From positions 1-39,425 of the IMG/VR virus record IMGVR_UViG_3300020477_000062: a stretch of 39,425 nucleotides of DNA. One strand, 5' to 3'. The position numbers were made by a program, and so were the translations under genes. Positions 3,515 through 37,292 of the stretch are shown here, piece after piece. The first letter of the stretch is position 1, and every line of letters starts with the position of its first letter. Below the pieces are notes generated by a model, which saw only the letters and a list, made by a program, of their open reading frames with translations, had not been told where the DNA came from and made no database searches. The DNA comes from a virus.

Positions 3515-3524
3515 AAAATTAAAT

Positions 3525-4792: not shown

Positions 4793-4834
4793 AAAATTAA
4801 ATTAAATTGCTTATATATATAATTACATAAAAGT

Positions 4835-6279: not shown

Positions 6280-6292
6280 ATATAAATGTGAC
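6275..6292. repeat. Perfect inverted repeat GTCACAT-4-ATGTGAC
   Basis: Seven-base arms around a 4-base spacer, overlapping both the stop codon of the 3D-domain gene and the start of element copy B. The symmetry and the short spacer suggest a dimeric repressor or activator site. The same half-site (TGTCAC/GTGACA) recurs in the 13.0-13.2 kb hub. Confidence 0.6.
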
Positions 6293-6636: not shown

Positions 6637-6637
6637 A

Positions 6638-14345: not shown

Positions 14346-17300
14346 ATGGCAATATTAGATGGTAACACATTATCAGAGCATATTCAATATCTAAGAAGGC
14401 AAAATACCTTATTAAATAAAAAAATCGCTGGATTATCTGCGGGTGGAACCTCTACAACAATACAACAATCACCGAACACTCTTGGTGCAAATATATCAAT
14501 AACAAATTTACCGGTAAAAGACGAGGATAATATGTCCTCAAATTCTGATGTACATATCGCTACACAACAATCTATAAAAGCATACGCTGATTTAATGCTA
14601 CCTAAAGCAGGTGGTGTAATGACAGGTTCATTAACAGTTGGTGTTGATGACACTGGGCATGATGTAAAATTATTTGGTGCTACATCAGGTGCATATTTAT
14701 TATGGGATGAAAGTGCTGATAAATTATTAACAGCAGGTGGTGCAGTTATAGATATAGTAAAAGATAAATTATTAATTGGTGGTACTGCGGTAACAACTAC
14801 AGCAGCTGAACTTAATATATTAGATGGTGCAACTTTATCTACAACGGAGCTTAATTATGTTGATGGTGTAACATCTGCAATCCAAACACAACTTGATGCT
14901 AAACTTCCTTTATCAGGTGGGGCGATGACTGGTGCTATTACAACAAATAGTACTTTTGATGGTAGAGATGTAAGTGTTGATGGGGCTAAGTTAGATAATA
15001 TAGAAGCAAATGCTACAGCGGATCAAACTAACGCGGAAATAAGAGCAGCAGTTGAAGCGGCTAGTGATTCAAATGTATTTACTGATGCGGATCACACAAA
15101 GTTAAATGGTATTGCAACAGGTGCTGAAGTGAATGTGCAAAGTGATTGGAGTTCGGGTTCAGGGGATGCACATATACTAAATAAACCTACAATACCTAGT
15201 GGTAATCAAATAATAGATTGGACTACAGATCAAGGTTCTACTAATATACATGTAAATAATTTAACACCTGTAGCACTTACAACTGTGCAGACCGCGGCAA
15301 ATCAATCAGCAATGTTAGCATTAACAACACAAGAAGGTGATGTTGTTGTAAGAACAGATGAAAAGAAATCATATATGCACAATGGTGGTACCGCTGGTGA
15401 TATGAATGACTTTACACTTTTACAAACACCAACTGATGTTGTAACGAGTGTAAACGGTGCAGTTGGAGCGGTCACGTTAACCCATGATGGGTTTAGTGAT
15501 TTTGTAGCTAATGAGCATATAGATTGGACAGCAGACCAAGGGTCAACTAATATACATTCTGGAAATTATACAGATACAAATACTAATCAACTCACAACAT
15601 TTTACGCATTAGATGATGATAATGACAGTAAAACAATAGCGCAAGGAAAATATATAAAATTTGTTTCAGCAACTGGTACAGCTGGAACAAATTGGTCAGG
15701 AGCAGGTACTAGTGGTGATCCATGGGTGATGACAATTACAAGTCCAGACACACAGACAACAAATGCTATTGACGGGTCAGGCACAGCTAATGATGTAGCA
15801 ATGTTTTCTGATAGTAATACACTAACAGATGCACCAATAGCAATCAGTGGTGATAATGCTACTTTTGCAGGAAATGTAGATGTTAATGGAACTGAAATAA
15901 CAGTTGGTGGTACTGGTTCAATATTCGCTGAAAATAATATTAGATTTAAATCTTCAGGGGCAGCATATATAGACCACAATACAACAAGCCAGTCAATTAT
16001 ATTTAGGACATCTACAAGTTCAAGTTTAGATACAACAGCTTTAACAATAACAAATGCAGGTAATGCAACTTTTGCAGGGAATATTGGTCTTGGTGGAGCA
16101 ACTAGTCCTAGTAGACTTTTACATATAGATAATACAAGTTCAACTAGTACAGCTGGTGCTTATATTTATACAAATGCACAACATACAGGAGCAGATACCC
16201 AAGCACATGTTTCAATAAGATCAGATCATGCAAGTTCTACCGGTGATGTTCTTTACGTTAGAGGTGATGGTACTGGTAATTTACTTACGTTAGACAAAGG
16301 TGGTTCAGATAAACTTGTTGTTGATGATGATGGTAATGCAACTTTTGCAGGTAATATTTTAATGGGTAATACAGTTGTAAATCCAGCATCAGGTTTTTCA
16401 GATCAAACAGGTATAGGTTTAAAATATTCAGCAACGGTTCCAGAACTACAAGTATCTTCAGATAGTACAGCTTTACAGTTAGGTAGAACATCTACTGGTG
16501 GTAGTGGACAAATAATGGCAATGAGAGCTGCTTCTACTACAGTACATGATTTTAGAACAACTTATTATAGCACAACTGGTTGGGTAGATGCTGCTAATTT
16601 TAAAATTGGTGGTGCTCAAGGTAGTGACGGTCAAGTATTAACATCAACAGGTTCAGGTGTAGCTTGGGAAGCCGCGACATCAACTGATAGTACTAAAATG
16701 CCATTAGCTGGAGGAACATTTACAGGTGATGTAACATTTGATGGAGCTAATTATCATATGATGTGGGATAAATCTGCTAATGCTTTAGAATTCTGGGATA
16801 ATGCAAAGTTAACATTTGGTGACCCAGGAGGTTCTCCAAATTTAGAATTATACCATGATGGTAGTCATAGTTATATAGATAATGATCATACTGGTGATTT
16901 ATATGTTAGATCGCTTAATGATGATGTTGTAATTCAAGCCGCTGATGATGTCTTTATATACACGCAAGCTGGTGAAGATGCTATAATAGCAAGAGGTAAT
17001 GCAGCTGTAGAGCTCTACTACAATAATTCCAAGAAACTTGAAACAAGTGATGCTGGAGCAACAATAACAGGCGCATTAACTACAACAGGTAATGTTACTA
17101 TTAGTAGTAGTATAAATAGATCTATTATATTAGATTATACTTCTGGTAGTGGTGGTTATTCATGGATGTCATTTAAACAAAGTGGCACAGAACAGTTTAG
17201 AGTCTTTGGTAGTTATACTGGTGATTATTTAAGTTTTTATAATGACCAAAATTCTGTAGGTCATCAACTTACCTTAGCGGCAACTGGTGAGGTTGGAGTT

Positions 17301-20300
17301 GGTACTGACTCACCTTTAGCTAAATTAGATGTAAGGACTTCAGGCAATACCGCAATTCCAGGCTTAGATGCAGCACCAGGAACATCAACCTCAGCTATAT
17401 TTAGAAATAGTGGTAATACTGTTATTTTAGCGACAGGAGTAGATAATGCAAATACATCTTGGTTGCAAGGAAGACAAAAAACTGGAACGGGGAATGCTTT
17501 TCCTATAGCTTTAAACCCTTTAGGAGGCAATGTTGGAATTGGAGAAACCACACCTGACAAAAAATTAGACGTATATACAGCTACAAATACAGATGGTATA
17601 AGAGCATGGGGACCAGCAACTAATCTTGCTTTAATGTTAAAAAATACAGGTAGTAATGGTTCAGATTGGAATATAGCATCCACTGGTGGAGGTCATGGTT
17701 ATGGTGATGGTTCATTACAATTTGGTATTGCTTATGGTGTTCCTAAAGTAACATTTAAATCAGATGGTACAGTTGGTATAGGAACTTATGCCCCTGACTC
17801 TTTACTTCATGTACAATCTACAGGTTCAGCAGTAATACATCTTGAAAATACAGGTAATGCTCAAGCAAGAATACAATTAGACGGAGATCGATCTGGCGCA
17901 GATAATAACATAGGATATTTAGAAGGATGGTGGAATGGAACTTCTGTAGCTGAAATTCGTTTTAAAAGTGGACAAGACACTACAAATAAAGATGAAGGTT
18001 GGATTGACTTTTTAACCGCACCACCTGGAGGTACACCAGCATCTCGTATGGTTATTAGAGAAGACGGAGATGTTGGAATTGGTACTGCGAGCCCTGCACA
18101 ACAACTTCATATACAAGATAATAGTGGTGGTGGTGTAATATTATTAGAAAGACAAGATAGTTCAACAAGTGGAACCATGGGTGAGATTCTTTTTGGTAGT
18201 CGTGATTATGATGACTCGCTTGCTTCTATTAAAGCTGTTATGGCTGGTTCAACAACGAGTGGTAAACTAGTTTTTTCTACAGAAGCAACAGGTGCGGCAC
18301 TAACAACAGCTTTAACATTAAATTCAGACCAATCTGCAACTTTTGCAGGAAATGTTACCGCTTCATCTGGTACTGGTCATTTTTCCAATGTTAATTCTTC
18401 ATCTTATCAACTAAATGGAACTTATGTAATGGATTCTAGTAGAAATTTAGTTAATATAGCTGCAATTACAACTACAGGTGTTGCAACTTTTGGAGATGAT
18501 GGAATTATAAACACTGCAAATAAAGCCTTAAAAATTAGGTATTCTACAGGAAGTGCAAGTCATGAAGGAAGACTACGATGGGCAGGTTTACAACTAGGAA
18601 ACAATGGTACTAATAGAATAGTAGCTGGAAATACTCAAGCTGGTGGTTCTTTAGCAATATATACAAACAATACTAATGATGGTTCTGATTATAATGTAAC
18701 ACCAGATGGAGCACATGCGGCTTCGTTTCAAGCAGATGGTGATACTATTTTACATCAAAACGTAGGTATAGGAACTTCAAGTCCAGGTGCAAAATTAAAT
18801 GTATTTACAGGTGGTAATAGTATTGCGGCTGCAGCGGTGTTACAACATGATACTTTTGCTACAGATAGAAAAGTTGGTTTAGGTTTTGAATTAGGTGATA
18901 CTCAAATTAAAGCTGCTGTAGGTTTTATCTCAGACGCCTCAAGTCCAGGAACACATGGTAGAGGAAATTTAATATTCTGTGTAGATAGTAATGACGATGC
19001 GGCACCTGTTGGTCATGCGGATGAAAAAATGCGTATTACACATGCAGGAAAAGTTGGAATTAATATTGCTTCACCTACTTCTAAATTAGACGTAAGAGAA
19101 GATGCTAATAACGTATATACTGCATATTTTTACAATTCAGCTACAGACGCAAATGCTCATGGTATTAATGTACAAACCGCAACTACTAACGCCGGTGCTT
19201 ATGCTTTTAGAGTAAATTCAGGAAGTCATAGTAATGCTTTAGTTGTAAAAGGTGATGCTAACGTGGGTATAGGAACTTCATCTCCAGCTAGTTATTATGG
19301 AAAAAAATTAGTTGTAGTTGCCCCTGATGAAAATGGAATAACATTATTAGGTACTGGAGCTAATCAAAAACAATATTTATGTTTTGCAGATGGTACTTCC
19401 GGTGCAGAGCCTTATACTGGGCATTTAGCTTATGATCATAATGATAATACAATGGTTTTGGCTACTAATGGAGGAGCTTTTGCTCTTAAACTAGATAGTT
19501 CACAAAATGCAACTTTTGCAGGGACAATAATCTCTTCTAAATCAACAGATGCAGGTATTGGTGGACAATTAAAATTAATAAATCCTCATAATTCAAATAA
19601 TGTAAATGAAATTGTTTTCCAACACAGAGGTAGTGGAACAGCATACTCAAAAATTGAATCTGCATCTGTTAGTGGTGGTGATAATACACAATTAAAATTT
19701 AAAACAGAAGGTGGTGGTTCAATTGCTACAAGATTAACTCTTGATGAGAATGGATATGCAACTTTTGCAGGTAAAGTAATAGTAAGTTATGCTAATGCAG
19801 CTCTTGATTTAGCACAGGCAGATGGTGGAGCACATTTTAGAATGGAATTAGATGGTGGAGACGAAACATACTTAAGTACAATAGGAAGTAATAATATGAT
19901 TTTACGAACAAACTCTAATGCAGCTCTTACATTAGATACTAGTCAAAACGCAACTTTTGCAGGTAGAGTAGTAACAGGAAACACAACAATAGGAAATTGG
20001 AGTAATTCAGATAGAATAGAAACAAGCGGTGATGAACTTACTTTAGGAACCCATAGCAACCATGATGTTATTATTAAGAGACAAGCTAGTGCAGCTTTAA
20101 CTTTCTCATCTGGCACTGCAACTTTTTCAGGGAATGTAGGTTTTGCTGGAACAACCCCTTCATATCATGTTGATATTAATAGAGCAACTAACGATGGTTG
20201 GTTAGCACGATTTAAAAACACAGGTACAGCGCCTTACGGTATACAGGTTGACACAAGTGGCAATGCTAGTACCTCATATACATTTGCAGCATATACAGCT

Positions 20301-20885
20301 GCCGAAGATTTTTACATAAGAAATGATGGAAAAGTTATGATTGGAACTACCACACCTGGTAGAATGCTAAGTATAAATGGTGGGACAGGTAATGATGGCG
20401 CTGTGAAATTAGAAACAACAGCTACAGCTAGTAATTTTTGGTCTGGTGTGGAATTAAAATCTCCTAATGCCCAGAGTTTTATATATATGTCTGCAGATGA
20501 TACTGCTGGTACAATAAAGTTTGTGCCTGCGGGTACTGTAAAAGCACATATAAATGCTACATCTTTTGTTTGCGCAGGAGATGTTGTTGCATATGGTTCA
20601 CCATCAGATATATCATTAAAAGAAAATATACAACCAATAAATAATGCTTTAGATAAAGTTTCTAAACTAAAAGGTATTACATTTGATTGGAAAGAGTCAG
20701 ATAGTTTATTAAAAATAAAAGAAGATATAGGCTTTATCGCACAAGATGTACAAAAAGTGTTACCTGATTTAGTAAGAGAGAATGATGATGGTAAATTATC
20801 ACTTAGAGATAAAGGTATAATACCAGTATTAGTTGAGGCTATAAAAGAATTAGAAGCAAGAGTAAAAGAATTAGAAAACAAGTGA
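14346..20885 (+). CDS. Giant tail fibre with C-terminal S74 intramolecular chaperone
   Basis: A 2179-aa receptor-binding or tail-fibre protein. N-terminal part: tail-fibre motifs AGGVMTGSL and SGGAMTGAI, and two IDWT-DQGSTNIH copies. The middle is a long array of beta-repeat units with about nine VGIGTxxPxxxLxV motifs, many NATFAGN turns and a YHDGSHSYIDN unit. The C-terminus from Ser2087 (SDISLKENI... IGFIAQDVQKVLPDLV) is a peptidase S74 domain; by family knowledge this trimerisation chaperone cuts itself off at that Ser after folding, followed by a terminal coiled coil (EAIKELEARVKELENK). At DNA level GCAACTTTTGCAGG recurs many times. It probably binds the host surface. Confidence 0.92.
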   Translation: MAILDGNTLSEHIQYLRRQNTLLNKKIAGLSAGGTSTTIQQSPNTLGANISITNLPVKDEDNMSSNSDVHIATQQSIKAYADLMLPKAGGVMTGSLTVGVDDTGHDVKLFGATSGAYLLWDESADKLLTAGGAVIDIVKDKLLIGGTAVTTTAAELNILDGATLSTTELNYVDGVTSAIQTQLDAKLPLSGGAMTGAITTNSTFDGRDVSVDGAKLDNIEANATADQTNAEIRAAVEAASDSNVFTDADHTKLNGIATGAEVNVQSDWSSGSGDAHILNKPTIPSGNQIIDWTTDQGSTNIHVNNLTPVALTTVQTAANQSAMLALTTQEGDVVVRTDEKKSYMHNGGTAGDMNDFTLLQTPTDVVTSVNGAVGAVTLTHDGFSDFVANEHIDWTADQGSTNIHSGNYTDTNTNQLTTFYALDDDNDSKTIAQGKYIKFVSATGTAGTNWSGAGTSGDPWVMTITSPDTQTTNAIDGSGTANDVAMFSDSNTLTDAPIAISGDNATFAGNVDVNGTEITVGGTGSIFAENNIRFKSSGAAYIDHNTTSQSIIFRTSTSSSLDTTALTITNAGNATFAGNIGLGGATSPSRLLHIDNTSSTSTAGAYIYTNAQHTGADTQAHVSIRSDHASSTGDVLYVRGDGTGNLLTLDKGGSDKLVVDDDGNATFAGNILMGNTVVNPASGFSDQTGIGLKYSATVPELQVSSDSTALQLGRTSTGGSGQIMAMRAASTTVHDFRTTYYSTTGWVDAANFKIGGAQGSDGQVLTSTGSGVAWEAATSTDSTKMPLAGGTFTGDVTFDGANYHMMWDKSANALEFWDNAKLTFGDPGGSPNLELYHDGSHSYIDNDHTGDLYVRSLNDDVVIQAADDVFIYTQAGEDAIIARGNAAVELYYNNSKKLETSDAGATITGALTTTGNVTISSSINRSIILDYTSGSGGYSWMSFKQSGTEQFRVFGSYTGDYLSFYNDQNSVGHQLTLAATGEVGVGTDSPLAKLDVRTSGNTAIPGLDAAPGTSTSAIFRNSGNTVILATGVDNANTSWLQGRQKTGTGNAFPIALNPLGGNVGIGETTPDKKLDVYTATNTDGIRAWGPATNLALMLKNTGSNGSDWNIASTGGGHGYGDGSLQFGIAYGVPKVTFKSDGTVGIGTYAPDSLLHVQSTGSAVIHLENTGNAQARIQLDGDRSGADNNIGYLEGWWNGTSVAEIRFKSGQDTTNKDEGWIDFLTAPPGGTPASRMVIREDGDVGIGTASPAQQLHIQDNSGGGVILLERQDSSTSGTMGEILFGSRDYDDSLASIKAVMAGSTTSGKLVFSTEATGAALTTALTLNSDQSATFAGNVTASSGTGHFSNVNSSSYQLNGTYVMDSSRNLVNIAAITTTGVATFGDDGIINTANKALKIRYSTGSASHEGRLRWAGLQLGNNGTNRIVAGNTQAGGSLAIYTNNTNDGSDYNVTPDGAHAASFQADGDTILHQNVGIGTSSPGAKLNVFTGGNSIAAAAVLQHDTFATDRKVGLGFELGDTQIKAAVGFISDASSPGTHGRGNLIFCVDSNDDAAPVGHADEKMRITHAGKVGINIASPTSKLDVREDANNVYTAYFYNSATDANAHGINVQTATTNAGAYAFRVNSGSHSNALVVKGDANVGIGTSSPASYYGKKLVVVAPDENGITLLGTGANQKQYLCFADGTSGAEPYTGHLAYDHNDNTMVLATNGGAFALKLDSSQNATFAGTIISSKSTDAGIGGQLKLINPHNSNNVNEIVFQHRGSGTAYSKIESASVSGGDNTQLKFKTEGGGSIATRLTLDENGYATFAGKVIVSYANAALDLAQADGGAHFRMELDGGDETYLSTIGSNNMILRTNSNAALTLDTSQNATFAGRVVTGNTTIGNWSNSDRIETSGDELTLGTHSNHDVIIKRQASAALTFSSGTATFSGNVGFAGTTPSYHVDINRATNDGWLARFKNTGTAPYGIQVDTSGNASTSYTFAAYTAAEDFYIRNDGKVMIGTTTPGRMLSINGGTGNDGAVKLETTATASNFWSGVELKSPNAQSFIYMSADDTAGTIKFVPAGTVKAHINATSFVCAGDVVAYGSPSDISLKENIQPINNALDKVSKLKGITFDWKESDSLLKIKEDIGFIAQDVQKVLPDLVRENDDGKLSLRDKGIIPVLVEAIKELEARVKELENK

Positions 20886-20964: not shown

Positions 20965-21255
20965 ATGACGTATTTTTATTATAAGACTAATACGTGGAGT
21001 AGTCAACCACAAATTTCCGAAGACCAAATTAACCTTTGGAAACATCTTTCAGAAAAGAAAAACTGGAGGATTGTACAATTACCAAATGGATACTTCCAAA
21101 CCGAATACCGAGATATGGAAGAAGATAAATGGTATGACGTTACTAGACGTGAAACAATGGAATCTGCAGAAGCAGCAATTGACGGTAGTATTGAACACTA
21201 CAATAAACGAGTGGATTTTCTAAAAGGTCCTAAAGTTGTAAAAACGTTTAAGTAA
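20965..21255 (+). CDS. 96-aa hypothetical protein before GroEL
   Basis: A charged, aromatic-rich protein (MTYFYYKTNTWSSQPQISED..., NGYFQTEYRDMEEDKWYDVTRRETMESAEAAIDGSIEHYN). The middle looks like a small beta sheet with a following helix, similar to short repeat domains that carry WYDVTRRETxxxAxxAID patterns. Function unknown. It precedes groEL by 27 nt and follows the first fibre after a 79-nt gap with no clear terminator, so it may share their transcript. Confidence 0.65.
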   Translation: MTYFYYKTNTWSSQPQISEDQINLWKHLSEKKNWRIVQLPNGYFQTEYRDMEEDKWYDVTRRETMESAEAAIDGSIEHYNKRVDFLKGPKVVKTFK

Positions 21256-21282: not shown

Positions 21283-22854
21283 ATGGAATATAATCAACCA
21301 AGTCAGATCGTTAAAGATCTAAATTTTGGCGAAGATGCCAAATCAAAGGTAATTTTAGGTGTGGATAAACTAGCTAAGGCAGTCAAATCCACCCTAGGAG
21401 CCTCTGGGAAATGTGTAGTATATGAAGATGCTAGAGGCAAACCGGTGATTACAAAAGACGGGGTAACGGTAGCGGAATCCGTTGTCTTATATGATCCGGT
21501 TGAAAATATGGGTGCTACTTTAATTAAAGAAGCAGCTAAAAATACTGTGAATGAAGCTGGAGATGGAACTACAACTGCTATTGTTTTAGCAGAATCGTTA
21601 TTAAAAAACGTAAACCACCCAGATCATTCAAGTAAATCAATAAGGGATATTAAAAATGGAATTAAATCAGGATATGAAAAGGTTATGGAATACCTTTCAA
21701 AAAACTCCAAAGCAGTATCTGGAGATATGCTCCAGCACGTATCGGCAATTAGTTGTAATAATGATAAAGAACTTGGCAGCATCATTGCGTCAGCTTACGA
21801 AAAAGTAGGTAAAGACGGTGTTGTTTTAATGGAAGAGTCTGATACAGAAAAAACGTATGTTAATATTGTTGATGGGGTTCAATTAGAATGTGGACTAACG
21901 TCACCTCATTTAATAACAGATAAAGATAAAAATATATCTATATTAGAAAATCCATATGTTTTAATTGTATCTTCTCCTATACCTAATATACGTAAGATAC
22001 AAAACATTTTAGAGCATGTAATAAAAACAAAGCAATCTTTATTAATTGTTGCTGAAGTAGATCAAAGTGTTAAAGCGGCGCTTTTAATGAATAAAGTTAA
22101 AGGAAATATTAAGGTAAATATTATTGATTTACCTGGATTTGGCCCAACAAAACAAGATACGGTAGAAGATCTAGCAGTATTAACAGGTGCTAAAGTTATT
22201 AATGAAGAATTAGGTGATGATTTAGATTTAATTGAACCTAGTGCTTTAGGTAGGGTATATAAATCTGTTACAGATAATAAAACAACTGTTTTAACTGTAG
22301 ATAGTAAAACCCAAGAACTAAAAGAAAGGATCAAATCTATTGAAAAGAAAATTAAAAATGAAAAAGATCCGTTTTTAAAAACTAAAATACAAGATAGATT
22401 AGCAATGTTAAATGGTAGCGTTGGAATGATTTATGTTGGGGGAAATTCAAAAGTTGAATTAAAAGAAAAGAAATATAGAGTTGAAGATGCTATTTATGCT
22501 ACAAAAGCTGCTCTAAAAGAAGGTATAGTATCAGGAGGTGGTATTGCATTGTTAAATGCCGCTACAAATATAAAAGCAGAAAATATTGGGGAGAAAATAT
22601 TAGTAAAGTCCATAAAATCTCCTTTCACCACAATTATGGAAAACGCTGGTATTGAAAACTACGAAACACCAACCACAGACGGTGTTGGTTTTAACGTAAT
22701 TTCCGGGAATACAGTTAACATGGTTAAAGCTGGAATCGTAGACCCCGTCTTAGTTACAAAAACCGCATTGAAAAATGCTATTAGTGTTGTTAGCACTATT
22801 ATTTCTGCTGATTGTGTAATTTCTAATGTAAGAGTGGATCATGCAGGCAGTTAA
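21283..22854 (+). CDS. groEL: Phage-encoded GroEL (Cpn60) chaperonin
   Basis: A full-length group I chaperonin of 523 aa. ATPase residues are intact: ITKDGV (Asp59, equal to E. coli Asp52), GDGTTTA (Asp94, equal to Asp87) and RVEDAIYATKAA (Asp402, equal to Asp398). The SGGG segment and the apical-domain block (LIVAEVDQSVKAALLMNKVKG, PGFGPTKQDTVEDLAVLTG) are also clear. It lacks the Gly-Gly-Met C-terminal tail of host GroELs and ends in VRVDHAGS; it is otherwise colinear. A 14-nt overlap with groES indicates joint translation. Placed between two giant fibre genes, it most likely folds phage structural proteins within its own GroEL/GroES ring. Confidence 0.97.
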   Translation: MEYNQPSQIVKDLNFGEDAKSKVILGVDKLAKAVKSTLGASGKCVVYEDARGKPVITKDGVTVAESVVLYDPVENMGATLIKEAAKNTVNEAGDGTTTAIVLAESLLKNVNHPDHSSKSIRDIKNGIKSGYEKVMEYLSKNSKAVSGDMLQHVSAISCNNDKELGSIIASAYEKVGKDGVVLMEESDTEKTYVNIVDGVQLECGLTSPHLITDKDKNISILENPYVLIVSSPIPNIRKIQNILEHVIKTKQSLLIVAEVDQSVKAALLMNKVKGNIKVNIIDLPGFGPTKQDTVEDLAVLTGAKVINEELGDDLDLIEPSALGRVYKSVTDNKTTVLTVDSKTQELKERIKSIEKKIKNEKDPFLKTKIQDRLAMLNGSVGMIYVGGNSKVELKEKKYRVEDAIYATKAALKEGIVSGGGIALLNAATNIKAENIGEKILVKSIKSPFTTIMENAGIENYETPTTDGVGFNVISGNTVNMVKAGIVDPVLVTKTALKNAISVVSTIISADCVISNVRVDHAGS

Positions 22855-23098
22855 TACATATGTTGTAGTTGATAAAATTAAAGAACCTGACAAGAAAGTC
22901 AAAGGTTTATTATTAACTGAAGAGTTAGATGAAGATAACAGGTATAATAGGGGTAATGTTATTAGCGTTGGAAATTTAGTAGAAGGTATAAAAGAAGGGG
23001 ATACAATACAATATGATAAACATGCTGGTCACGGTATGCAATGGAATGATAAACTATACTATGTTATACGGGTGAATGATATAGTAATAGTAGAATGA
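22841..23098 (+). CDS. groES: Phage-encoded GroES (Cpn10) co-chaperonin
   Basis: An 85-aa co-chaperonin. VVVDKIKEPDKKVKGLLLTEE (8-28) is the N-terminal strand plus mobile loop, with GLLLT in place of the usual GIVLT that docks on GroEL. RGNVISVGN (37-45), the VEGIKEGDTIQYDKHAG block (48-64), and YYVIRVNDIVIVE at the end complete the beta-barrel. It overlaps groEL by 14 nt, the order groEL-groES being reversed from the common bacterial groES-groEL. It would cap the phage GroEL or perhaps host GroEL. Confidence 0.93.
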   Translation: MQAVNTYVVVDKIKEPDKKVKGLLLTEELDEDNRYNRGNVISVGNLVEGIKEGDTIQYDKHAGHGMQWNDKLYYVIRVNDIVIVE

Positions 23099-23538
23099 AA
23101 ATATTAAGTTCATCTTATTTACGTGAAATTAAATTGCTTAAGTATTACAGGCTCGTTAGAAAATGGGCCTGTAAAACATATAATTTAAAAGATGCAGATT
23201 TAGAACTTTTAATTTACTTAGATTGTAAAGGTCAGTTTACACGTAATGATTTTATTAATGGAGTATATACGTACTCGTGGGATAAAAACAGGTGGGAGAG
23301 ATTAAGAAGAGATGGTTGGATAGAAGCGTGGAGACATAGAAATAGAACAACAATTAAATATAGTATTTTTAAAACATCATTTAAATGTTCACAACTAATA
23401 AGTAGAATTTATAGAATTTTACTAAATGAAGAAGATTTACCCACTTCAGAAAGAAGTGTTTTTTATAAAAATAAATCATATACAGATAAGGTTTTTAATA
23501 AATCTATAGATGATATGATAAAAGATAAAGATAGATAA
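23095..23538 (+). CDS. Winged-helix-like hypothetical protein
   Basis: A 147-aa basic protein. YYRLVRKWACKTYNLKDADLELLIYLDCKGQFTRNDF (about 17-53), followed by WDKNRWERLRRDGWIEAWRHRNRTTIKYSI, has the helix-helix-strand spacing of a MarR-type winged helix; RNRTTIKYSI would be the wing. A Ser/Lys-rich tail ends in KDKDR. It overlaps groES by 4 nt (ATGA) and so is part of the chaperonin operon. It may bind DNA, possibly as a late regulator or an internal virion protein. No family can be named. Confidence 0.7.
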   Translation: MKILSSSYLREIKLLKYYRLVRKWACKTYNLKDADLELLIYLDCKGQFTRNDFINGVYTYSWDKNRWERLRRDGWIEAWRHRNRTTIKYSIFKTSFKCSQLISRIYRILLNEEDLPTSERSVFYKNKSYTDKVFNKSIDDMIKDKDR

Positions 23539-26481: not shown

Positions 26482-29400
26482 ATGGCACAGAATTTTTTAA
26501 CCGGTATAAATATCGTAGGAGACGCTCTATCCATTAGTGGAAATTCTGTCATTTCTTCAGCAAGGCATGCCGCCTTCGTAAATTTAACAACAACAGGTGA
26601 TAATACATTAGGTAATGCTACTAGCGATAGTACGACTATTAATGGTAAACTAATTACTAATGGAGCTATTTTAGGTGGTTCTGATGGAGCAAATGGTGGT
26701 ATAAGAATTCATAGTGGAGGAACAAAATTTTTTAGTGTAAATTCATCTAACGCTGCAACAAATAACGTAATGGACGTTGGTGCATCAGATGCAAAATTCA
26801 AAGATGCGTATTTTGGAGGAACAGTAGATGCTGCAACAATAGGTAGTAATACAGCCGCATTACGAGGAACTTCATTAACTATAGATTCAAGATTAACTTT
26901 ACATGATGGAGAAATAGATAATAATTCAGGGGATTTAACTTTAGATTCAGCGGGAGATATTATTTTAGATGCTGATGGTGGGGATATTAAATTAAAAGAT
27001 GCTGGTGTATCAAAGCACACTATTTCTATGCAAGCAAATGGGGATACTTATTTTGTAAACGAAACTGCTGATGCTGATATAATGATTAGAGGTGTAGATG
27101 GTTCTTCAACTATAAGTGCAGTGACTTTTGATATGTCAAATGCTGGTTCAGCTTTCTTTAACCATGATATAGTTTTAGTAGATAATGGTAAAGTTACTTT
27201 TGGAGGTGGTTCGGATCTACAAATTTATCATGACGGATCTCATAATTATATAGATGCTACAACTACAGATCAAGATATTATATTTAAAGGTACAGATGGT
27301 GGTAGCGATATAACAGCATTAACCTTAGATATGTCAGAGGGTGGTAATGCAACCTTTGCAGGTAATGTAGATTTTTCCAATAATAAGGGTTTAACTTGGG
27401 CTGGCTCACACTCTGTTAGAGTTGAAAGTAATATTTTAAAAATGGCCGCTTCTAGTGGTATACAGTTACAAAATGCTACTCAAATATATTATGATGGCGG
27501 TGGTGCTGCTATGGGATTAGATATACACAATTCAGGAACTAATGCTGCTGATGACGCTAAAATAACATTTGAAACTCAAGGTCAATATGACTATATAGTA
27601 GGTATTGATAGAAGCGCAGGTGAATTTAAAATATCTCGTTCTGCTGCTTTTGGAACAAATGATGTTATTTCATTAGATAGTAGTAGTAATGCAACTTTTG
27701 CAGGTGATGTAACAGCCGAAGGTTCCATAGCATCACTTGATGGTTCTTCTCAAGTTTTTCTAGGTGAATATAGTAATGGAGCTGTTATTTGGTTAGATGG
27801 TTCTGATGGTGATTTATCTGGTGGTGATTATTTTGGTATACATGCTTACGGGACTGATACTTTAGCATTTAGTTATGGCGCTTCAACTAAAATGATAATG
27901 GACAATGAGGGTAAACTTGGTTTAAATGGAACAACACCTAATGATTATCATAACGATGCTGATGACCTTATTGTTGGTAGTGGTAGTGGAAATGCAGGTA
28001 TGACAATACGAAGTGGAACTACTGGTTACGGATCAATATTCTTTGCAGATGGTACAGCAGATGATGCTACAGAAAAAAGAGGTCAAATAAGATATTTACA
28101 AGGTAGTGAAGTTATGACTTTCCACACTGATAATGTTGCTACCGCGGCTTTATCACTTAACCTTGATCAAAGTGCAACTTTTGCAGGACATGTATTATTA
28201 GCTGATAGTAAAGTATTAAAAATAGGTACTGGTGCAGATCTTCAATTAGAACACAACGGATCACATAGTTTTATTACTAGTAACACAGGTAATTTAAATA
28301 TAATTGAAAATGCAGGTGCTTTAAATATAATTAACAATACCACTGATGGTAATATAGTATTTACTAATGATGATGGTAATGGTGGTACATTTGATTACTT
28401 CTATTTAGATGGTGGTAGCACAACATACGCTAGTGGTGCTACAACAGCGGCATATACTATATGGAAAGACAATTCAAGGGTAACATTTGGTAATGATAAA
28501 AATTTATCCATATTTCATGATGGAAATAATAACCAAATTAGAAATGAGATTGGTAATCTTGATTTTGAGCAACACGCTGATAATGGAGATATAAGATTTT
28601 ATGGTGATAATGGCGCTGGTGGTGTAAGATGTTATTTCTATATGGATGGTAGTTTAGCAGCAGATGGTGGTCTTTGTTATACTACATTCACTGATAATAG
28701 TGTATTAGATTTTGGAGACAGCCAAGATTTAAAAATATCACACCAAAGTGGTAATAGTTATATAGAAAATGGAACCGGTATATTAAATATTAATAACAGT
28801 GGTGGTAATCTTGTTTTTGATATTTCTGGTGATATAACATTAGATGCTGGTGGTAATGATATAAGATTATTTAAAGCAGGTGTTGAGTATGGTAAATTTA
28901 AAAATGATAGTGGCAATCTAGCAATGTATTCATCAATACAAGATGAAGATATAATATTCAGAGGCAATGATGGTGGTTCTATAATAGACGCTCTTACTTT
29001 AGATATGTCAAATGGTGGTTCAGCTACATTTTTAGATGATGTTGACATAGGTAAAAATCTTAATTTGATCAGTGCTTCAAGTCCTACCATACAGGTAAAG
29101 GACACAACAAACAACTGTATTTTAAAAATGTACGCTCAAGATAGTAATGCTATTATAGGAACTTACAGTAATCATCCTTTAGCATTTTACACTGATAGTG
29201 GCGCAACTTTAACATTAAACACCGACCACAGTGTGTTATTTGCTAGCACAGTAGAAACATCAGGGGTGTTTGCTGCAGGAAATGGCGCTGTTGGTGCTCC
29301 TGCGTTTACATTTGCAAGTGATTTAAATACTGGAATATACAGAACTGGTGCTGATAGTATAGGATTTGCAACTGGTGGTTCTCTTGCTTTAACTATAGCA

Positions 29401-32175
29401 AATAACGATGCAACTTTTGCAGGTAGAATAGCAGATCTTCATAAAAAATATTGTAGTGCATCAATATCTAATAGTTATGTTAGAATATATTTTGCTGACG
29501 ATTCAACCAATAGTGCAGGTGGCAGTGAAATGGGAACTATAGTTAGATTAACAGGTACTGCTCATGGTACAAGCCACGTAGGTTGTTTTACTGCACTTAT
29601 AAATGTTGGTCACTATCAAAGTGTTCATATAGAATCATTCAATAATTTTTATGGTACTCACACTTCCGGAGCAACTAATCCAATTTTAAAAGTAGAAAGT
29701 GATAACAATGGTTCATATACATTATCTATGAAAACCGCTAGTACAAATGCTGCTACGTATTACTTTACTATAGAGTGTTTAACTCCAGAATCAACAATAA
29801 CAACACTACCTGGTTCTACAGCATCAACAAGTACAACACATGAGCATACAATGATTCAAGGTTCACATAGTACTGGTGCTGGTGGATATAAGGGTGTCAA
29901 AATAACAGGTGATTTACATATAAAACAACTTGATGATGCAGGTTTTGATGAAGGATTTATAATTGAAAGAAGTGCTAATACGCAAAAACTTATTATTGGT
30001 ATGGATGGTGGCGCTGTTAATTTTAATAGCCCTGATGGTTTAAGTTATAAATTTAGAAATAACGGTAGCGAGAAATTTACAATAGATAGTTCTGGTAATA
30101 TAACCCCTCAATCAAGAATAACTTTTGATTATGGTGGTGACCATTATATGGAAACAGGCACTGATACCTTATCTTTTAAGGCTAGTAGCGGAACTGTTCA
30201 ATCTACGTTTAATTTTTCAGATTTATCTACAACTTTTGCAGGGAATTTAACAATCCCAGAATATATATATCATAGTGGTGATACAGATACTTATCTTAGA
30301 CTTGAAACTAATAATGTTGTTCTTGCTGCTGGTTTGGCAGGATATATTCAATTAGAATCTGATGGTGATATACAAATAGTACCAGAATACACCACTGATA
30401 ATGCTGTTCATTACATAGAATTAGGTAGAGTTGCTGGTTCAAATAGCGGTAGTTCAACTGGAGATAACCCTGTACACGTAACTGTATTAGGAGGTTATTC
30501 AGTAGATTGGAGTGGTGGTACAAGATTATCTAATGAAGGTTTCTTAATGTGGCATTCAGGTGGTGGTTGGACAGGTAATCAAAGACATTGGGCTTTAACT
30601 AATGCTTATGATATGGGTGGAACTGGTGGTCCAAAATTCGCTTTACTATTAGGTGATGATAGCACTACAGAACCTACATTAGGTTCAAATGGCGCGTTAG
30701 GTACTAACACATCCGTAGCAACTTATTGGAAAAATGATAAACATTTGATTCATGGTGGTGCTGCAACGTTTAATATGGGTAGTGGTGTAGCTACCATGAC
30801 TTCAACAACATCGCCTTTATTAGTATTAAATCCAACTGCTAATAATTACGGTGGTATTCAATTTCAGTACGGAGGTGCTGTAAAAGGTATGTCGATGTAT
30901 AATTCAGGCATGATGGTGTATGGTGGTGAGTCTGGTGTATTTACAAGATTACAAGCAGGTGGTGGATATGGTTTACATATTGATGCAACAAATCAAAATG
31001 TTCATGTAGGTTCAACAAGTGATACTAGTTACAAATTAGGAGTTAACGGAACATTTTATGCTTCTGGTGATGCAACTTTTGGAGGAAAAGTAGCTGTTGG
31101 TGGAGCATCACAAGTTGCAAACTCTGCAGTATTAGATGTAAATATAGACCAAACAAATGGTGCATTAGCCGCAGCTAATACAGTTCATTTTGGGAAACAC
31201 GGTGCACATACAGATGGTCAAATAAGTGGTATAACATTAGGTTATAAAGAAAATGGTAATGCTAGTTATAGAAAACTAGCTATTGTATCTGAAGGTAGAG
31301 GAGATGGAGCTGCTAGACAAAATTTACATTTATTAGTAGATATTGCAGCTGATAGTGGAAGCGCTGCTCTTACTGATTCAAAATTAAAAATTGATGGATT
31401 AACAGGAGTTACAACCCTTAATGGAACTAGTACTAGCGCAAGATTTAGTGTTGGTGGTGATGTATCTGTTTTAGGATCAACTGATTTTACAATCCCAACA
31501 GGTAGAAAACTCTTATTAGATGGTGCTGGTGGACACACTTATATAATGGAAGAAGGTGATAACAACATGAAGTTTTATGTTGGTGGTTCTGAACATATGG
31601 CAGTTGGTGGTGGAAATGTTACTATAAAACCTAGTTCTACTTTTACAGTAGATGCTGGAGGTCAAGTTAATCTTGATGCTGGTAATGCAGAAATTCACTT
31701 AAAAGGTTCAGGAACTACATTTGGTAAACTTTTCACATCAGGAAGTGATTTTTATATCAACCATCCTGTTTCAGATGAAGATATTATATTTAGTGGTAAT
31801 GACGGTGGTAGTTCAATAACAGCCCTAACTTTAGATATGTCAGAAGCTGGTAAAGCAACATTTAATAATGATGTTGTAGCGTTCTCAGATAGAAAGTTAA
31901 AGAAAGATATTAAGACTTTAGATGGTTCTAAGGTATATGATATGCGTGGTGTTAGTTTTACTAGAAAAGATACTGGTAAAGATGGTAGCGGTGTTATAGC
32001 TCAAGAACTACAAGAAATAGCACCAGAATTAGTTAATGAAACAAATGGTACATTAGGTGTATCTTATGGTAATATAACAGGATATTTAATTGAAGCTATT
32101 AAAGATTTAAAAGCAGAAATAGAAGAATTAAAGAAATGTAATAAATGTGAAAATTGTAATTGTGAAAATAAATAA
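26482..32175 (+). CDS. Second giant tail fibre with S74 domain and Cys-rich tail
   Basis: A 1897-aa fibre built of the same beta units as the first: ATFAG turns, YHDGSHNYIDA, LQLEHNGSHSFITS, KISHQSGNSYIENG, and DEDIIFRGNDGGS / DEDIIFSGNDGGS pairs. Around residues 1000-1140 is a non-repeat insert (ADLHKKYCSASISNSYVRIYF ... GSHSTGAGGYKG), possibly a receptor-binding head. The S74 chaperone starts at Ser1802 (SDRKLKKDIKTL) with GSGVIAQELQEIAPELV. After the terminal coiled coil the protein ends CNKCENCNCENK, an unusual cluster of four Cys absent from the first fibre. Confidence 0.92.
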   Translation: MAQNFLTGINIVGDALSISGNSVISSARHAAFVNLTTTGDNTLGNATSDSTTINGKLITNGAILGGSDGANGGIRIHSGGTKFFSVNSSNAATNNVMDVGASDAKFKDAYFGGTVDAATIGSNTAALRGTSLTIDSRLTLHDGEIDNNSGDLTLDSAGDIILDADGGDIKLKDAGVSKHTISMQANGDTYFVNETADADIMIRGVDGSSTISAVTFDMSNAGSAFFNHDIVLVDNGKVTFGGGSDLQIYHDGSHNYIDATTTDQDIIFKGTDGGSDITALTLDMSEGGNATFAGNVDFSNNKGLTWAGSHSVRVESNILKMAASSGIQLQNATQIYYDGGGAAMGLDIHNSGTNAADDAKITFETQGQYDYIVGIDRSAGEFKISRSAAFGTNDVISLDSSSNATFAGDVTAEGSIASLDGSSQVFLGEYSNGAVIWLDGSDGDLSGGDYFGIHAYGTDTLAFSYGASTKMIMDNEGKLGLNGTTPNDYHNDADDLIVGSGSGNAGMTIRSGTTGYGSIFFADGTADDATEKRGQIRYLQGSEVMTFHTDNVATAALSLNLDQSATFAGHVLLADSKVLKIGTGADLQLEHNGSHSFITSNTGNLNIIENAGALNIINNTTDGNIVFTNDDGNGGTFDYFYLDGGSTTYASGATTAAYTIWKDNSRVTFGNDKNLSIFHDGNNNQIRNEIGNLDFEQHADNGDIRFYGDNGAGGVRCYFYMDGSLAADGGLCYTTFTDNSVLDFGDSQDLKISHQSGNSYIENGTGILNINNSGGNLVFDISGDITLDAGGNDIRLFKAGVEYGKFKNDSGNLAMYSSIQDEDIIFRGNDGGSIIDALTLDMSNGGSATFLDDVDIGKNLNLISASSPTIQVKDTTNNCILKMYAQDSNAIIGTYSNHPLAFYTDSGATLTLNTDHSVLFASTVETSGVFAAGNGAVGAPAFTFASDLNTGIYRTGADSIGFATGGSLALTIANNDATFAGRIADLHKKYCSASISNSYVRIYFADDSTNSAGGSEMGTIVRLTGTAHGTSHVGCFTALINVGHYQSVHIESFNNFYGTHTSGATNPILKVESDNNGSYTLSMKTASTNAATYYFTIECLTPESTITTLPGSTASTSTTHEHTMIQGSHSTGAGGYKGVKITGDLHIKQLDDAGFDEGFIIERSANTQKLIIGMDGGAVNFNSPDGLSYKFRNNGSEKFTIDSSGNITPQSRITFDYGGDHYMETGTDTLSFKASSGTVQSTFNFSDLSTTFAGNLTIPEYIYHSGDTDTYLRLETNNVVLAAGLAGYIQLESDGDIQIVPEYTTDNAVHYIELGRVAGSNSGSSTGDNPVHVTVLGGYSVDWSGGTRLSNEGFLMWHSGGGWTGNQRHWALTNAYDMGGTGGPKFALLLGDDSTTEPTLGSNGALGTNTSVATYWKNDKHLIHGGAATFNMGSGVATMTSTTSPLLVLNPTANNYGGIQFQYGGAVKGMSMYNSGMMVYGGESGVFTRLQAGGGYGLHIDATNQNVHVGSTSDTSYKLGVNGTFYASGDATFGGKVAVGGASQVANSAVLDVNIDQTNGALAAANTVHFGKHGAHTDGQISGITLGYKENGNASYRKLAIVSEGRGDGAARQNLHLLVDIAADSGSAALTDSKLKIDGLTGVTTLNGTSTSARFSVGGDVSVLGSTDFTIPTGRKLLLDGAGGHTYIMEEGDNNMKFYVGGSEHMAVGGGNVTIKPSSTFTVDAGGQVNLDAGNAEIHLKGSGTTFGKLFTSGSDFYINHPVSDEDIIFSGNDGGSSITALTLDMSEAGKATFNNDVVAFSDRKLKKDIKTLDGSKVYDMRGVSFTRKDTGKDGSGVIAQELQEIAPELVNETNGTLGVSYGNITGYLIEAIKDLKAEIEELKKCNKCENCNCENK

Positions 32176-34049: not shown

Positions 34050-34251
34050 GATAAGTATTGGTAAAGATTATAAAAATGAAGCTATGCATTACGCCGTTGG
34101 CCAAGAGGTTTACGGCGGGCATACTATTTGTAATATAATAGAAGAAGATACTAAATACAGTATTTATATTAAAAAAGATAAAGATGTATTACCATGGAAA
34201 GATTTTAATAAAAACATGGCGGTATCTATAGAATATAACTTAGAATATTAA
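34030..34251 (+). CDS. 73-aa hypothetical protein
   Basis: A small basic-then-acidic protein (MGKLIRKISIGKDYKNEAMHYAVGQEVYGGHTICNIIEEDTKYSIYIKKDKDV). A GGHTICNII turn between strands suggests a compact SH3-like barrel. It overlaps the coiled-coil gene by 20 nt and the tandem GroES-like gene by one base. Function unknown. Confidence 0.6.
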   Translation: MGKLIRKISIGKDYKNEAMHYAVGQEVYGGHTICNIIEEDTKYSIYIKKDKDVLPWKDFNKNMAVSIEYNLEY

Positions 34252-34853
34252 TGCGTGCATTATATAATTTTATAGTTGAACCAATAGGAGGAAGATATAA
34301 TAATAAAAAACAAATTGGTGATAAAGAGCTTATATTAAATACAGAAGTATTTAATCATCAATACGTTAATAGAGAAGCTAAGGTTATAGCTATACCTAAA
34401 TTATTACAAACTGATATAAAAGTTGGTGATACAGTATTAGTTAATCACAATATATTTAGAAGATGGCATGATATTAGAGGGAATGAGAAAAATAGTAGAA
34501 GTTATATTAAAAGCAATTTATATTCTATCAATGAAGATCAAATATACGCGTGTAAAAGAAATAATAAATGGAACGCTTTAGATGGATATTGTTTCTTACA
34601 ACCAATTGAATCAAAAGATAAATTTGATACTAACAAAGAACAACAAAATGTTGGTATTGTTCAATATATTGAGAGTAATAATATAAAAAATGTTAATATA
34701 GGTGATTTAGTTGGTTTTATACCAGGTGTTGAGTATGAATTTATAGTTAACAATACACGTTTGTATAGGATATTAATACAACACATTACAATTAAATATG
34801 AATATAAAGGAAACGAAAAGAAATATAATCCACGCTGGGCAGAAAGCAGTTGA
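34251..34853 (+). CDS. Tandem GroES-like fold protein
   Basis: A 200-aa protein whose first half (about 4-101) follows the Cpn10 plan: NFIVEPIG strand, a loop with ELILNTE (26-32) in the place of the GroES GIVLT docking motif, REAKVIAIP, DIKVGDTVLVNHN and a final SINEDQIYACK. A second, shorter copy (about 112-185) repeats it: DGYCFLQPIES, QNVGIVQYIE, NVNIGDLVGFIP, and LYRILIQHITIKYE. Thus the phage may carry two proteins of this fold beside its GroEL. The match is by eye, and SH3/OB-type barrels can look alike. It overlaps the next gene by 56 nt. Confidence 0.6.
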   Translation: MRALYNFIVEPIGGRYNNKKQIGDKELILNTEVFNHQYVNREAKVIAIPKLLQTDIKVGDTVLVNHNIFRRWHDIRGNEKNSRSYIKSNLYSINEDQIYACKRNNKWNALDGYCFLQPIESKDKFDTNKEQQNVGIVQYIESNNIKNVNIGDLVGFIPGVEYEFIVNNTRLYRILIQHITIKYEYKGNEKKYNPRWAESS

Positions 34854-35070
34854 TGAATTAATTAAAGTTGCTAAAGAACCTATTGTAGATTCAGAAGATG
34901 ATATATCTGCTGATAGATTAAAAAATGCCGCAGCTACAAAAAAATTAGCTATATTTGATGCTTTTGAAATATTGAATAGAATTGAAGAAGAAAGAAATAT
35001 ATTAGAAGATAAACCTTCACAGAAAAAAGATAATACATTTCAGGGTTTTGCAGAAAAGAGATCTAAATAA
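34798..35070 (+). CDS. Likely small terminase subunit (TerS-like)
   Basis: A 90-aa helical protein (GQKAVDELIKVAKEPIVDSEDD, ISADRLKNAAATKKLAIFDAFEILNRIEEERNILEDK). Size, helical character and direct coupling to the large terminase (one-base overlap) suggest a terminase small subunit or an associated DNA-recognition factor. No classical TerS HTH is evident, and I base this on position. It overlaps the preceding gene by 56 nt. Confidence 0.6.
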   Translation: MNIKETKRNIIHAGQKAVDELIKVAKEPIVDSEDDISADRLKNAAATKKLAIFDAFEILNRIEEERNILEDKPSQKKDNTFQGFAEKRSK

Positions 35071-37292
35071 TGCACGAACAAACGTTATATAAAATTATTG
35101 AACCAGTAAGAATTAACACGCTTAAAAGGTTAAATAAAAGTAAGAAATGGAAATATGGTTATAATAAAGAAAATGATATTATAGTCATAAGTAAGACAGG
35201 ACAAATAGGTGAGATATATGAAATACAAAATCTTAAAATAGCTTTACCACCTGCTACTAAAGTTTATAGTAGATCAAAAAAGAAAAAAGAACAATACTGG
35301 GAGCAGTTCGAATATCCAAAAGCATTGAAAAATGTTAAAACCATTTTTGATTGGAGAGATTATCCCAATGAACATAAAGATAAATGGTTTGATTATATCA
35401 ATGAGGAATTCAATCGTAGGGAAAATGGTTTTTGGTTTAATAATAATGGTAAGCCTACTTACATTACCGGTACTCACTATATGTATCTTCAGTGGTCAAA
35501 AATTGATGTGGGTGCTCCTGAATTTAGAGAATCAAATAGATTATTCTATTTATTTTGGGAAGCTTGTAAAGCAGATAAACGCAGCTATGGAATATGTTAT
35601 CTTAAAAATAGACGATCTGGTTTCTCGTTTATGGCAAGTGCGGAAACAGTTAACGCTGCTACTATCTCGAGTGATTCAAGATTTGGGATATTATCAAAAA
35701 CTGGTTGGGATGCTAAAAAGATGTTTACAGATAAGGTTGTACCAATATCTGTTAATTACCCGTTTTTCTTTAAACCGATTCAGGATGGTATGGATCGACC
35801 AAAAAGCGAACTTGCATATAGGGTCCCGGCTCAAAAGTTTACTAGAAAGAAACTTCAAACGAATGAGCAAATTGAAGAAATTGTAGGTTTAGATACAACT
35901 ATTGATTGGAAAAACACTGGCGATAACAGTTATGACGGAGAAAAACTTAATCTATTAGTACACGATGAGAGTGGTAAGTGGGAGAGGCCTGATAATATAT
36001 TAAATAATTGGAGAGTAACAAAAACATGTTTACGTTTAGGTAGTAGGGTTATTGGGAAATGTATGATGGGTAGTACATCAAATGCATTAGATAAAGGTGG
36101 TGATAATTTTAAAAGATTATTTAGAGATTCTGATGTAACAAAAAGAAATAAAAATGGACAAACTAAATCTGGATTATATAGTTTGTTTATACCAATGGAA
36201 TGGAATTATGAGGGATTTATGGATAGGTATGGTATGCCTGTATTTATAACACCTAAGGACGTAGTTTATAATATCTATAACGATATGGTTGAAACTGGCG
36301 TTGTTAATCATTGGGAAAATGAAGTTGAAGGTTTAAGAAATGATCAAGATGCTTTAAATGAGTTTTACAGACAGTTTCCAAGAACTGAAGAACACGCATT
36401 TAGAGATGAAGCGCAAAATAGTATATTTAATTTAGTAAAAATATACGAACAAATAGATTTTAATGAAGAATTAAAAAATTCAGTTGGTATATCAACTGGA
36501 AACTTCCAGTGGGTTAATGGAATTAAAGATAGTAACGTAATATTTTATCCTGATCCAAAAGGAAGATTTAATGTTTCTTGGGTACCACCTAGTCATTTAC
36601 AAAATAAAATTGTTGATAAAAATGGTAGAAAGTATCCTGGTAACGAGCATATGGGAGCTTTTGGATGTGATAGCTATGACATATCTGGAACAGTAGATAA
36701 TAAAGGATCTAAAGGTGCGTTACACGGTTTAACAAAGTTTAGTATGGAGGATTGTCCTCCTAACCAATTTTTTTTAGAATATATAGCAAGACCAGCAACA
36801 GCTGAAATGTTTTTTGAAGACGTATTAATGGCATTAGTATTTTACGGAATGCCAATACTTGCTGAAAATAATAAACCTAGATTATTATATTATTTAAGAA
36901 GAAGAGGTTATAGAGGTTATTCAATGAATAGACCTGATAAAGTATGGAATAAATTATCCGTTGCTGAAAAAGAAGTTGGTGGAATTCCAAATTCAAGTGA
37001 AGATATTAAACAAGCACACGCTGCTGCAATTGAAATGTATATACAAGAGCATGTTGGCACGAAGCAAGATGGATCTCATGGGAATATGTATTTTAATAAA
37101 ACACTTAATGATTGGTCAAGATTTGATATAAATAAAAGAACAAAATTTGACGCGACAATAAGTTCAGGTTTAGCAATTATGGCATGTAATAGAAATTTAT
37201 ATGCACCAAATGCTAAAATAGAGACACAAAAACTAAATATAAACATCGCTAAATATACTAATAGTGGTACAATATCTAAATTAATAGAGTAA
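35070..37292 (+). CDS. Terminase large subunit (crAss-like)
   Basis: The 740-aa packaging motor. ATPase: a deviant Walker A, LKNRRSGFS (178-186), Walker B LNLLVHDE (293-300) and coupling motif GSTSNALDKGG (334-344). The strongly conserved EFYRQFPRTEEHAF (431-444) is a mark I associate with crAss-like TerL. The nuclease domain has FGCDSYDISG (531-540) with metal-binding Asp534. A long, basic N-terminal region (1-130) is extra relative to minimal TerL. It overlaps TerS-like by one base and precedes the portal by 1 nt. Confidence 0.93.
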   Translation: MHEQTLYKIIEPVRINTLKRLNKSKKWKYGYNKENDIIVISKTGQIGEIYEIQNLKIALPPATKVYSRSKKKKEQYWEQFEYPKALKNVKTIFDWRDYPNEHKDKWFDYINEEFNRRENGFWFNNNGKPTYITGTHYMYLQWSKIDVGAPEFRESNRLFYLFWEACKADKRSYGICYLKNRRSGFSFMASAETVNAATISSDSRFGILSKTGWDAKKMFTDKVVPISVNYPFFFKPIQDGMDRPKSELAYRVPAQKFTRKKLQTNEQIEEIVGLDTTIDWKNTGDNSYDGEKLNLLVHDESGKWERPDNILNNWRVTKTCLRLGSRVIGKCMMGSTSNALDKGGDNFKRLFRDSDVTKRNKNGQTKSGLYSLFIPMEWNYEGFMDRYGMPVFITPKDVVYNIYNDMVETGVVNHWENEVEGLRNDQDALNEFYRQFPRTEEHAFRDEAQNSIFNLVKIYEQIDFNEELKNSVGISTGNFQWVNGIKDSNVIFYPDPKGRFNVSWVPPSHLQNKIVDKNGRKYPGNEHMGAFGCDSYDISGTVDNKGSKGALHGLTKFSMEDCPPNQFFLEYIARPATAEMFFEDVLMALVFYGMPILAENNKPRLLYYLRRRGYRGYSMNRPDKVWNKLSVAEKEVGGIPNSSEDIKQAHAAAIEMYIQEHVGTKQDGSHGNMYFNKTLNDWSRFDINKRTKFDATISSGLAIMACNRNLYAPNAKIETQKLNINIAKYTNSGTISKLIE

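Follow-up and report, generated by a model that had tools for sequence, protein, structure and literature searches.

A conserved Cpn60-Cpn10 pair with an altered docking face and a predicted tandem co-chaperonin in a lineage of Bacteroidota-type podoviruses

Here, we report a virus that carries overlapping genes for a complete Cpn60 and Cpn10, in which the docking face of Cpn60 has been rewritten and the roof of Cpn10 is missing, together with a distant third gene predicted to encode two Cpn10 folds in tandem. On balance, we favour the view that these proteins make up a private, partly host-orthogonal chaperonin of Bacteroidota podoviruses, which would serve a virion protein and would work with Cpn10 and tandem lids. 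Such pairs are known and common in themselves; the novelty of the set lies in its roofless lid, its tandem second co-chaperonin and a docking surface whose change is fixed.

The stretch of DNA analysed in this study (the window) is a whole virus record of 39,425 bases. The terminase shares 62% identity with its counterpart in podovirus ctfjg026, 45% with those of the Flavobacterium elemo phages and 38-42% with those of Cellulophaga and Maribacter phages, which places the virus near the Bacteroidota podoviruses (Pervagoviridae, Pachyviridae and Elemovirus). A portal gene is located at the window end, and no capsid gene is reached inside the window. The left part holds a replication module on the opposite strand (647-7486, minus strand), containing genes for thymidylate synthase, a primase-helicase, an exonuclease-like protein, an ERF annealing protein, a sigma-70-like factor and an ATP-dependent DNA ligase. 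The chaperonin pair and the genes next to it are as follows.

20965..21255, plus strand: ORF of 96 aa of unknown function, directly upstream of Cpn60 and in the same conserved cluster
21283..22854, plus strand: Cpn60 (GroEL-like, 523 aa, ATG start; PF00118, PHROG 5725), without a GGM tail
22841..23098, plus strand: Cpn10 (GroES-like, 85 aa, ATG start; PF00166, PHROG 3188)
23095..23538, plus strand: ORF of 147 aa of unknown function (PHROG 17028); its start and the stop of Cpn10 share 4 nt (ATGA)

The original prediction had described a full Cpn60 and Cpn10 overlapping by 14 nt, and both genes were indeed found at exactly these coordinates on the same strand. The larger protein matched the Pfam family PF00118 (E-value 1e-52 over residues 30-515) and PHROG 5725 (chaperonin groEL, 2e-134), and it belongs to the group I Cpn60 proteins, with a full-length match that spans the equatorial, intermediate and apical domains. 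The smaller one matched PF00166 (6e-11) and PHROG 3188 (co-chaperonin GroES, 4e-15). Three other features named in the original prediction were also borne out: the reversed gene order (Cpn60 then Cpn10, the opposite of E. coli groSL), the absence of a GGM tail from Cpn60, whose C-terminal end reads ...CVISNVRVDHAGS, and intact ATPase residues. On alignment to E. coli GroEL, the latter comprise T30, L31, G32, K51, D52, D87-G88-T89-T90-T91, S151, D398, G415 and D495, while P33 of E. coli GroEL is Ala in the window protein.

A scan of IMG/VR revealed at least 590 confirmed relatives, and the best 80 loci (69-78% identity), each with at most 5 kb of flanking sequence, were used for neighbourhood counts. 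Cpn10 directly follows and overlaps Cpn60 in all of these 80 loci, by 14 nt in 46 and by 17 nt in 24. The ATP site and the catalytic aspartates (D52, D87 and D398) are present in the window and in all of the best 80 relatives, and dN/dS values of 0.05-0.16 in 12 close pairs indicate purifying selection on Cpn60. The pair is complete and conserved, and probably functional. Its conserved neighbours in the best 80 loci are the 96-aa ORF (73), the 147-aa ORF (72, median identity 82%) and a holin gene (66). The 147-aa ORF is better conserved than either the Cpn60 or the Cpn10 gene, and the 96-aa ORF gave no convincing E-value with any family in Pfam or PHROG.

It had been proposed that most phages with a chaperonin part carry only one of the two genes, which is contradicted by the 80 best relatives, all with the adjacent pair, and by loci like that of immuto, another Flavobacterium-phage type, where both genes lie side by side in 73 of 80. 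Among loci resembling SJC03, a set that may include bacterial DNA, about a quarter have both genes. In the elemo phages and ctfjg026 the gene order is the same as in the window and the pair is annotated in the deposited records, whereas immuto, phi38:1 and SJC03 have the opposite order. On the other hand, Vibrio phage Va1, K357 and AR9 have a Cpn60 with no Cpn10 nearby; thus, both situations exist in nature, and the complete pair is the rule in the window lineage. When the phi38:1 GroEL was used in a scan of viral contigs, it matched only itself and Calle.

Previous studies have reported both GroEL and GroES genes for Maribacter phage Panino (PMC11590407) and for Aoguangviridae (PMC10768690), GroEL/GroES analogues in most of the Southern Ocean viruses studied (PMC8407431), and a GroEL in 36 out of 78 genomes from the environment that belong to the phi38:1 group (Nishimura et al., PMC5332604). 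We also noticed several phage-labelled records with a bacterial-looking GroEL that is likely host DNA (OR848861, PQ520251, OR846590 and Salmonella records); one example of such labelling is a 'Listeria phage' of 3.4 kb. Records of this type inflate the count of phages with GroEL.

To place the Cpn60 of the window, we reconstructed a phylogenetic tree (FastTree, LG+gamma, SH-like support) of 85 sequences, including 31 bacterial GroELs of one phylum. The window protein fell in a phage-only clade, outside the 31 bacterial GroELs sampled and separated from them by long branches. The window group together with the MAG-binned phage contigs had a support of 0.996, the podovirus sequences as a whole 0.997, and the latter plus immuto 1.0; the branching inside the podovirus group was weakly supported (e.g., 0.56 for phi38:1 versus elemo). 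Placement within the host clade had been named in advance as the outcome that would speak against the finding, and the tree shows the opposite: Cpn60 is not inside that clade and hence is not a recent host passenger. A recently captured host groESL, carried along as a passenger gene, is therefore rejected as contradicted by the tree, and we regard it as extremely improbable. In its favour, the best PDB match of Cpn60 is a reconstructed ancestral GroEL of Fibrobacteres-Chlorobi-Bacteroidetes, and the ultimate source of the gene may be that group. However, besides the long branches in the tree, the reversed gene order and identities of at most about 40% to both annotated phage GroELs and the bacterial-looking GroELs in the phage collection argue against such a capture.

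Phage-type Cpn60 sequences of the window lineage were also observed on seven GTDB MAG contigs, six of them with Cpn10, which had been binned as Alphaproteobacteria, Maricaulis, Sphingobacteriales, Euryarchaeota, Flavobacteriaceae, Rickettsiales and Aliivibrio. These contigs with close Cpn60 copies are probably misbinned phage DNA.

The closest known counterparts are the elemo phages (Elemovirus) and ctfjg026 (MW202828), which have the same overlapping Cpn60-then-Cpn10 arrangement plus a tandem co-chaperonin gene beside the terminase. However, the elemo Cpn60 is only about 35% identical to that of the window, the elemo pair lies on the strand opposite to the structural genes, unlike in the window, and elemo and ctfjg026 do not share all of the apical residues Q234, K259 and M264 that are fixed in the window clade. 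The same packaging neighbourhood, together with Cpn60, Cpn10 and the tandem protein, is found in the Cellulophaga phages phi38:1, phi40:1 and Calle (Pervagoviridae) and in Panino, the presence of all three proteins having been tested for phi38:1 and Panino. In contrast to the window, phi38:1 has Cpn10 before Cpn60, with a small ORF between them, in the replication region.

The apical face of Cpn60, which binds substrate and GroES in E. coli, has been rewritten in this lineage, whereas no change is seen in the ATP site. Among 81 clade sequences, in an apical region where the block alignment is clear, Leu234 is replaced by Gln in 81, Val264 by Met in 81, Leu259 by Lys in 76 and Y203 by His in 80; in addition, Y199 has become Leu or Ile (Leu in the window) and V263 Leu or Met. 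Leu237, kept in all 81, is the only apical contact among those compared that the window protein retains. The window Cpn60 thus does not have the hydrophobic apical face of the bacterial type (Y199L, Y203H, L234Q, L259K and V264M), whose standard residues are kept in the sampled bacterial GroELs, which argues against docking of the host type and not against its being a Cpn60. In E. coli GroEL, polar changes at several of these apical positions abolish binding of GroES and of substrate. Going by the residues identified through E. coli mutants, we predict that the phage Cpn60 probably works apart from the host machine.

The Arg197-Glu386 salt bridge is also lost (R197 to Ser or Cys in 77 of 81 and E386 to Lys in 80 of 81), there is no conservation at the inter-ring residues R452, S463 and V464, and the loop of E434 is deleted. 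The loss of inter-ring residues suggests a weak or absent double ring, and, taken together with the reduced apical hydrophobic contacts, makes single rings plausible. Compared with the GroEL/GroES systems of E. coli and Bacteroidota, the window pair therefore shares the full domain structure and the ATPase site, but differs in the apical docking residues, the R197-E386 bridge, the inter-ring residues, the tail, the roof and the gene order.

Loss of the standard inter-ring and GroES contacts in a phage-encoded Cpn60 is also seen in the EL, OBP and AR9 chaperonins, of which EL goes to single rings with ATP while OBP and AR9 are single-ring (PMC7185714, PMC9598537). One alternative is that the window Cpn60 is an encapsulation-independent holdase of the same kind, with a vestigial Cpn10. 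Its reduced apical contacts and unconserved inter-ring residues would fit such a protein, and EL functions without any lid and fails to bind the GroES of its host (PMC7185714). On the other hand, Cpn10 is retained, intact and overlapping, in 80 of the 80 best loci, and Leu237 is kept throughout the 81 sequences. Moreover, EL, OBP and AR9 are distant proteins for which no co-chaperonin is known and no lid is required (PMC7185714, PMC9598537); AR9 and its relatives are only about 22-27% identical to the window Cpn60, which, having a co-chaperonin, falls outside their clade of jumbo-phage Cpn60s. We thus consider the holdase alternative unlikely, and the preferred reading remains a chaperonin with a lid of its own.

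The Cpn10 of the pair has a predicted beta-barrel fold (AF2 model, pLDDT 89) that superimposed on Thermus Cpn10 with Z 11.7 and 1.5 A over 75 residues. Its mobile loop segment comprises 20 residues in nearly all of the 81 sequences, versus 18 in E. coli, and the hydrophobic triad of this loop is present (LIM or LIL in most, LLL in the window). The roof segment, which has 18 residues in E. coli and mostly 13 in Bacteroidota, is only 9 residues long in all 81; thus, the roof hairpin is absent from the whole set, as in T4 gp31, which also has a longer mobile loop. The missing roof and longer loops of gp31 are thought to let its cage hold the larger gp23 (PMC6318259). A clear difference is that gp31 uses the host GroEL to fold the capsid protein of the phage, whereas the window phage supplies its own Cpn60 as well.

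A second gene of the co-chaperonin family, missed by the original prediction, was identified 11 kb downstream of the pair, beside the terminase gene.

34251..34853, plus strand: co-chaperonin-family protein of 200 aa, predicted to have two tandem Cpn10 folds (domain 1, about residues 1-106; domain 2, about 107-184)
34798..35070, plus strand: ORF of 90 aa, overlapping the end of the tandem gene by 56 nt and preceding the terminase large subunit
35070..37292, plus strand: terminase large subunit, a conserved neighbour of the tandem co-chaperonin gene

By its position, the 90-aa ORF is possibly the small terminase. The tandem gene is present in all 22 long relatives tested that carry the Cpn60/Cpn10 pair, and it is conserved in several families of Bacteroidota phages. 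In elemo, phi38:1, Panino and ctfjg026 its homologues immediately precede the terminase gene, and phi18:3 has a 200-aa 'chaperonin cpn10' at the corresponding position. Among 15 contigs with the tandem protein, five have Cpn60, although these contigs are fragmentary and, in several of those lacking it, the stretch expected to hold Cpn60 runs off the contig. The published core genes of Pervagoviridae include a 'chaperonin cpn10' (PMC8776804), which is probably the tandem gene, judged by its spread.

The window protein gave a match to PHROG 13932 'co-chaperonin GroES' (1e-16) and no Pfam match, and hhalign comparisons of each half with the clade Cpn10, and of one half with the other, gave no significant similarity. 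In its homologues from phi18:3 and phi38:1, domain 2 scores above the cut-off for PF00166 and the match of domain 1 is weak. The case for a Cpn10 relationship, with no direct sequence detection in the window protein, is therefore built on PHROG 13932, the homologues and the predicted fold. A model based on an alignment of 66 sequences had a mean pLDDT of 81.8, with 55 around residues 31-40, and its best full-length PDB match was Chlamydomonas Cpn20 (7ekq_R; Foldseek E-value 5e-5), aligned over residues 1-184 (Z 9.8, 3.7 A, 157 residues). Domain 2 of the model alone matches GroES (Z 9.2) and gp31. The protein is thus predicted to consist of two head-to-tail Cpn10 folds in a Cpn20-like arrangement, for domain 1 according to one model.

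In the window lineage, domain 1 keeps a segment resembling a mobile loop with the hydrophobic triad LIL, whereas the loop of domain 2 is short and has lost the triad. A Cpn20 has two such loops, and we therefore speak of a Cpn20-like fold and do not file the protein as Cpn20. Single and tandem Cpn10-type co-chaperonins coexist in the chloroplast Cpn60/Cpn10/Cpn20 system as in the window, but the phage protein has no close sequence similarity to Cpn20, besides the missing triad of its second domain. Chloroplast Cpn10 and tandem Cpn20 form mixed seven-domain lids, and a review has called the tandem type chloroplast-specific (PMC5780408). In the open literature searched, no description of a tandem Cpn10 in phages was found, and absence there is not proof. 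It is possible, although we would hold it only tentatively, that the single Cpn10 and the tandem double Cpn10 form mixed lids on the phage Cpn60, giving a host-orthogonal three-part chaperonin that resembles that of chloroplasts and arose independently.

A competing reading, which we rate below an even chance, is that the tandem protein is a head, neck or packaging protein reusing the Cpn10 fold, so that only the Cpn60/Cpn10 pair is a chaperonin. The tandem gene adjoins the terminase in every examined phage having it, its probable listing as a family core gene (PMC8776804) would suit a structural protein, domain 2 in the window is without a hydrophobic mobile loop, and a clade-specific C-terminal YNPSWA tail is strongly conserved. 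Against this stand the LIL segment of domain 1, the Cpn10 scores of the phi18:3 and phi38:1 homologues by Pfam, and phi18:3 itself, which has a separate single Cpn10 next to the tandem protein and no Cpn60, as expected of lids able to use the host GroEL. By Pfam, Gundel has none. One reading of the gene content of these two phages, inferred from few genomes, is that the lids came first and acted on the host GroEL, and that Cpn60 was added later. phi18:3 (NC_021794.1, 38430-48691) offers a natural comparison for whether such lids work with the host GroEL.

With regard to the client, the original prediction had pointed to two giant trimeric fibres on either side of the pair.

14346..20885, plus strand: giant fibre of 2179 aa with an S74 intramolecular chaperone at its C-terminus; not conserved in position among relatives
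26482..32175, plus strand: giant tail fibre of 1897 aa with an S74 intramolecular chaperone at its C-terminus; not conserved in position among relatives

The pair does lie between the two fibre genes in the window, but the second one is not adjacent: about 3.4 kb, holding the holin and other genes, separates it from the pair. The idea that the pair serves these fibres was weakened by the relatives. Only 6-10 of the 80 best loci have ORFs that match the fibres of the window, and 65 of the 80, within their flanks of at most 5 kb, have no other ORF of at least 500 aa; an S74 domain was found in seven of the 22 long relatives, all of which have the chaperonin pair. That the pair exists specifically to fold the flanking fibres is, in our judgement, quite improbable, even though an S74 protein is likewise encoded near the terminase of phi38:1. 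Beyond the poorly conserved neighbourhood, S74 fibres bring their own intramolecular chaperone, chains of 1900-2200 aa far exceed the GroEL cage, and the chaperonin genes of immuto and phi38:1 lie beside DNA polymerase genes. Because the giant fibres are not conserved neighbours and S74 occurs in so few of the long relatives, a core virion protein is the more likely client. That a chaperonin of this type is made is supported by phi38:1, whose GroEL was detected by mass spectrometry in infected cells and free virions (PMC13288928).

The preferred reading, a private phage chaperonin, would operate in the following way. The overlapping genes would allow Cpn60 and Cpn10 to be translated together, and the two proteins would assemble into a folding cage that is driven by ATP and has a lid of its own. 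Owing to Gln234, Met264 and usually Lys259, together with the divergent Cpn10 loop, the pair would be at least partly orthogonal to the host GroEL/GroES. The roofless Cpn10 may leave the top of the cage open, as in T4 gp31, giving room for a conserved virion protein whose size or unusual character puts it beyond the host cage; the most likely candidate would be a structural protein of the head or tail that every member has, and not the variable fibres. The tandem-Cpn10 protein may serve in the lid in place of Cpn10 or alongside it, in the way that Cpn20 joins Cpn10 in chloroplasts.

Phage GroEL and GroES are usually listed merely as auxiliary genes, whereas here the chaperonin is fixed throughout an abundant marine lineage. 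This raises the questions of which phage protein the host cage cannot fold, and how a chaperonin and its lid can change partners without losing function, and cultured relatives make both directly testable. If the pair is truly orthogonal, it would also be a useful laboratory tool.
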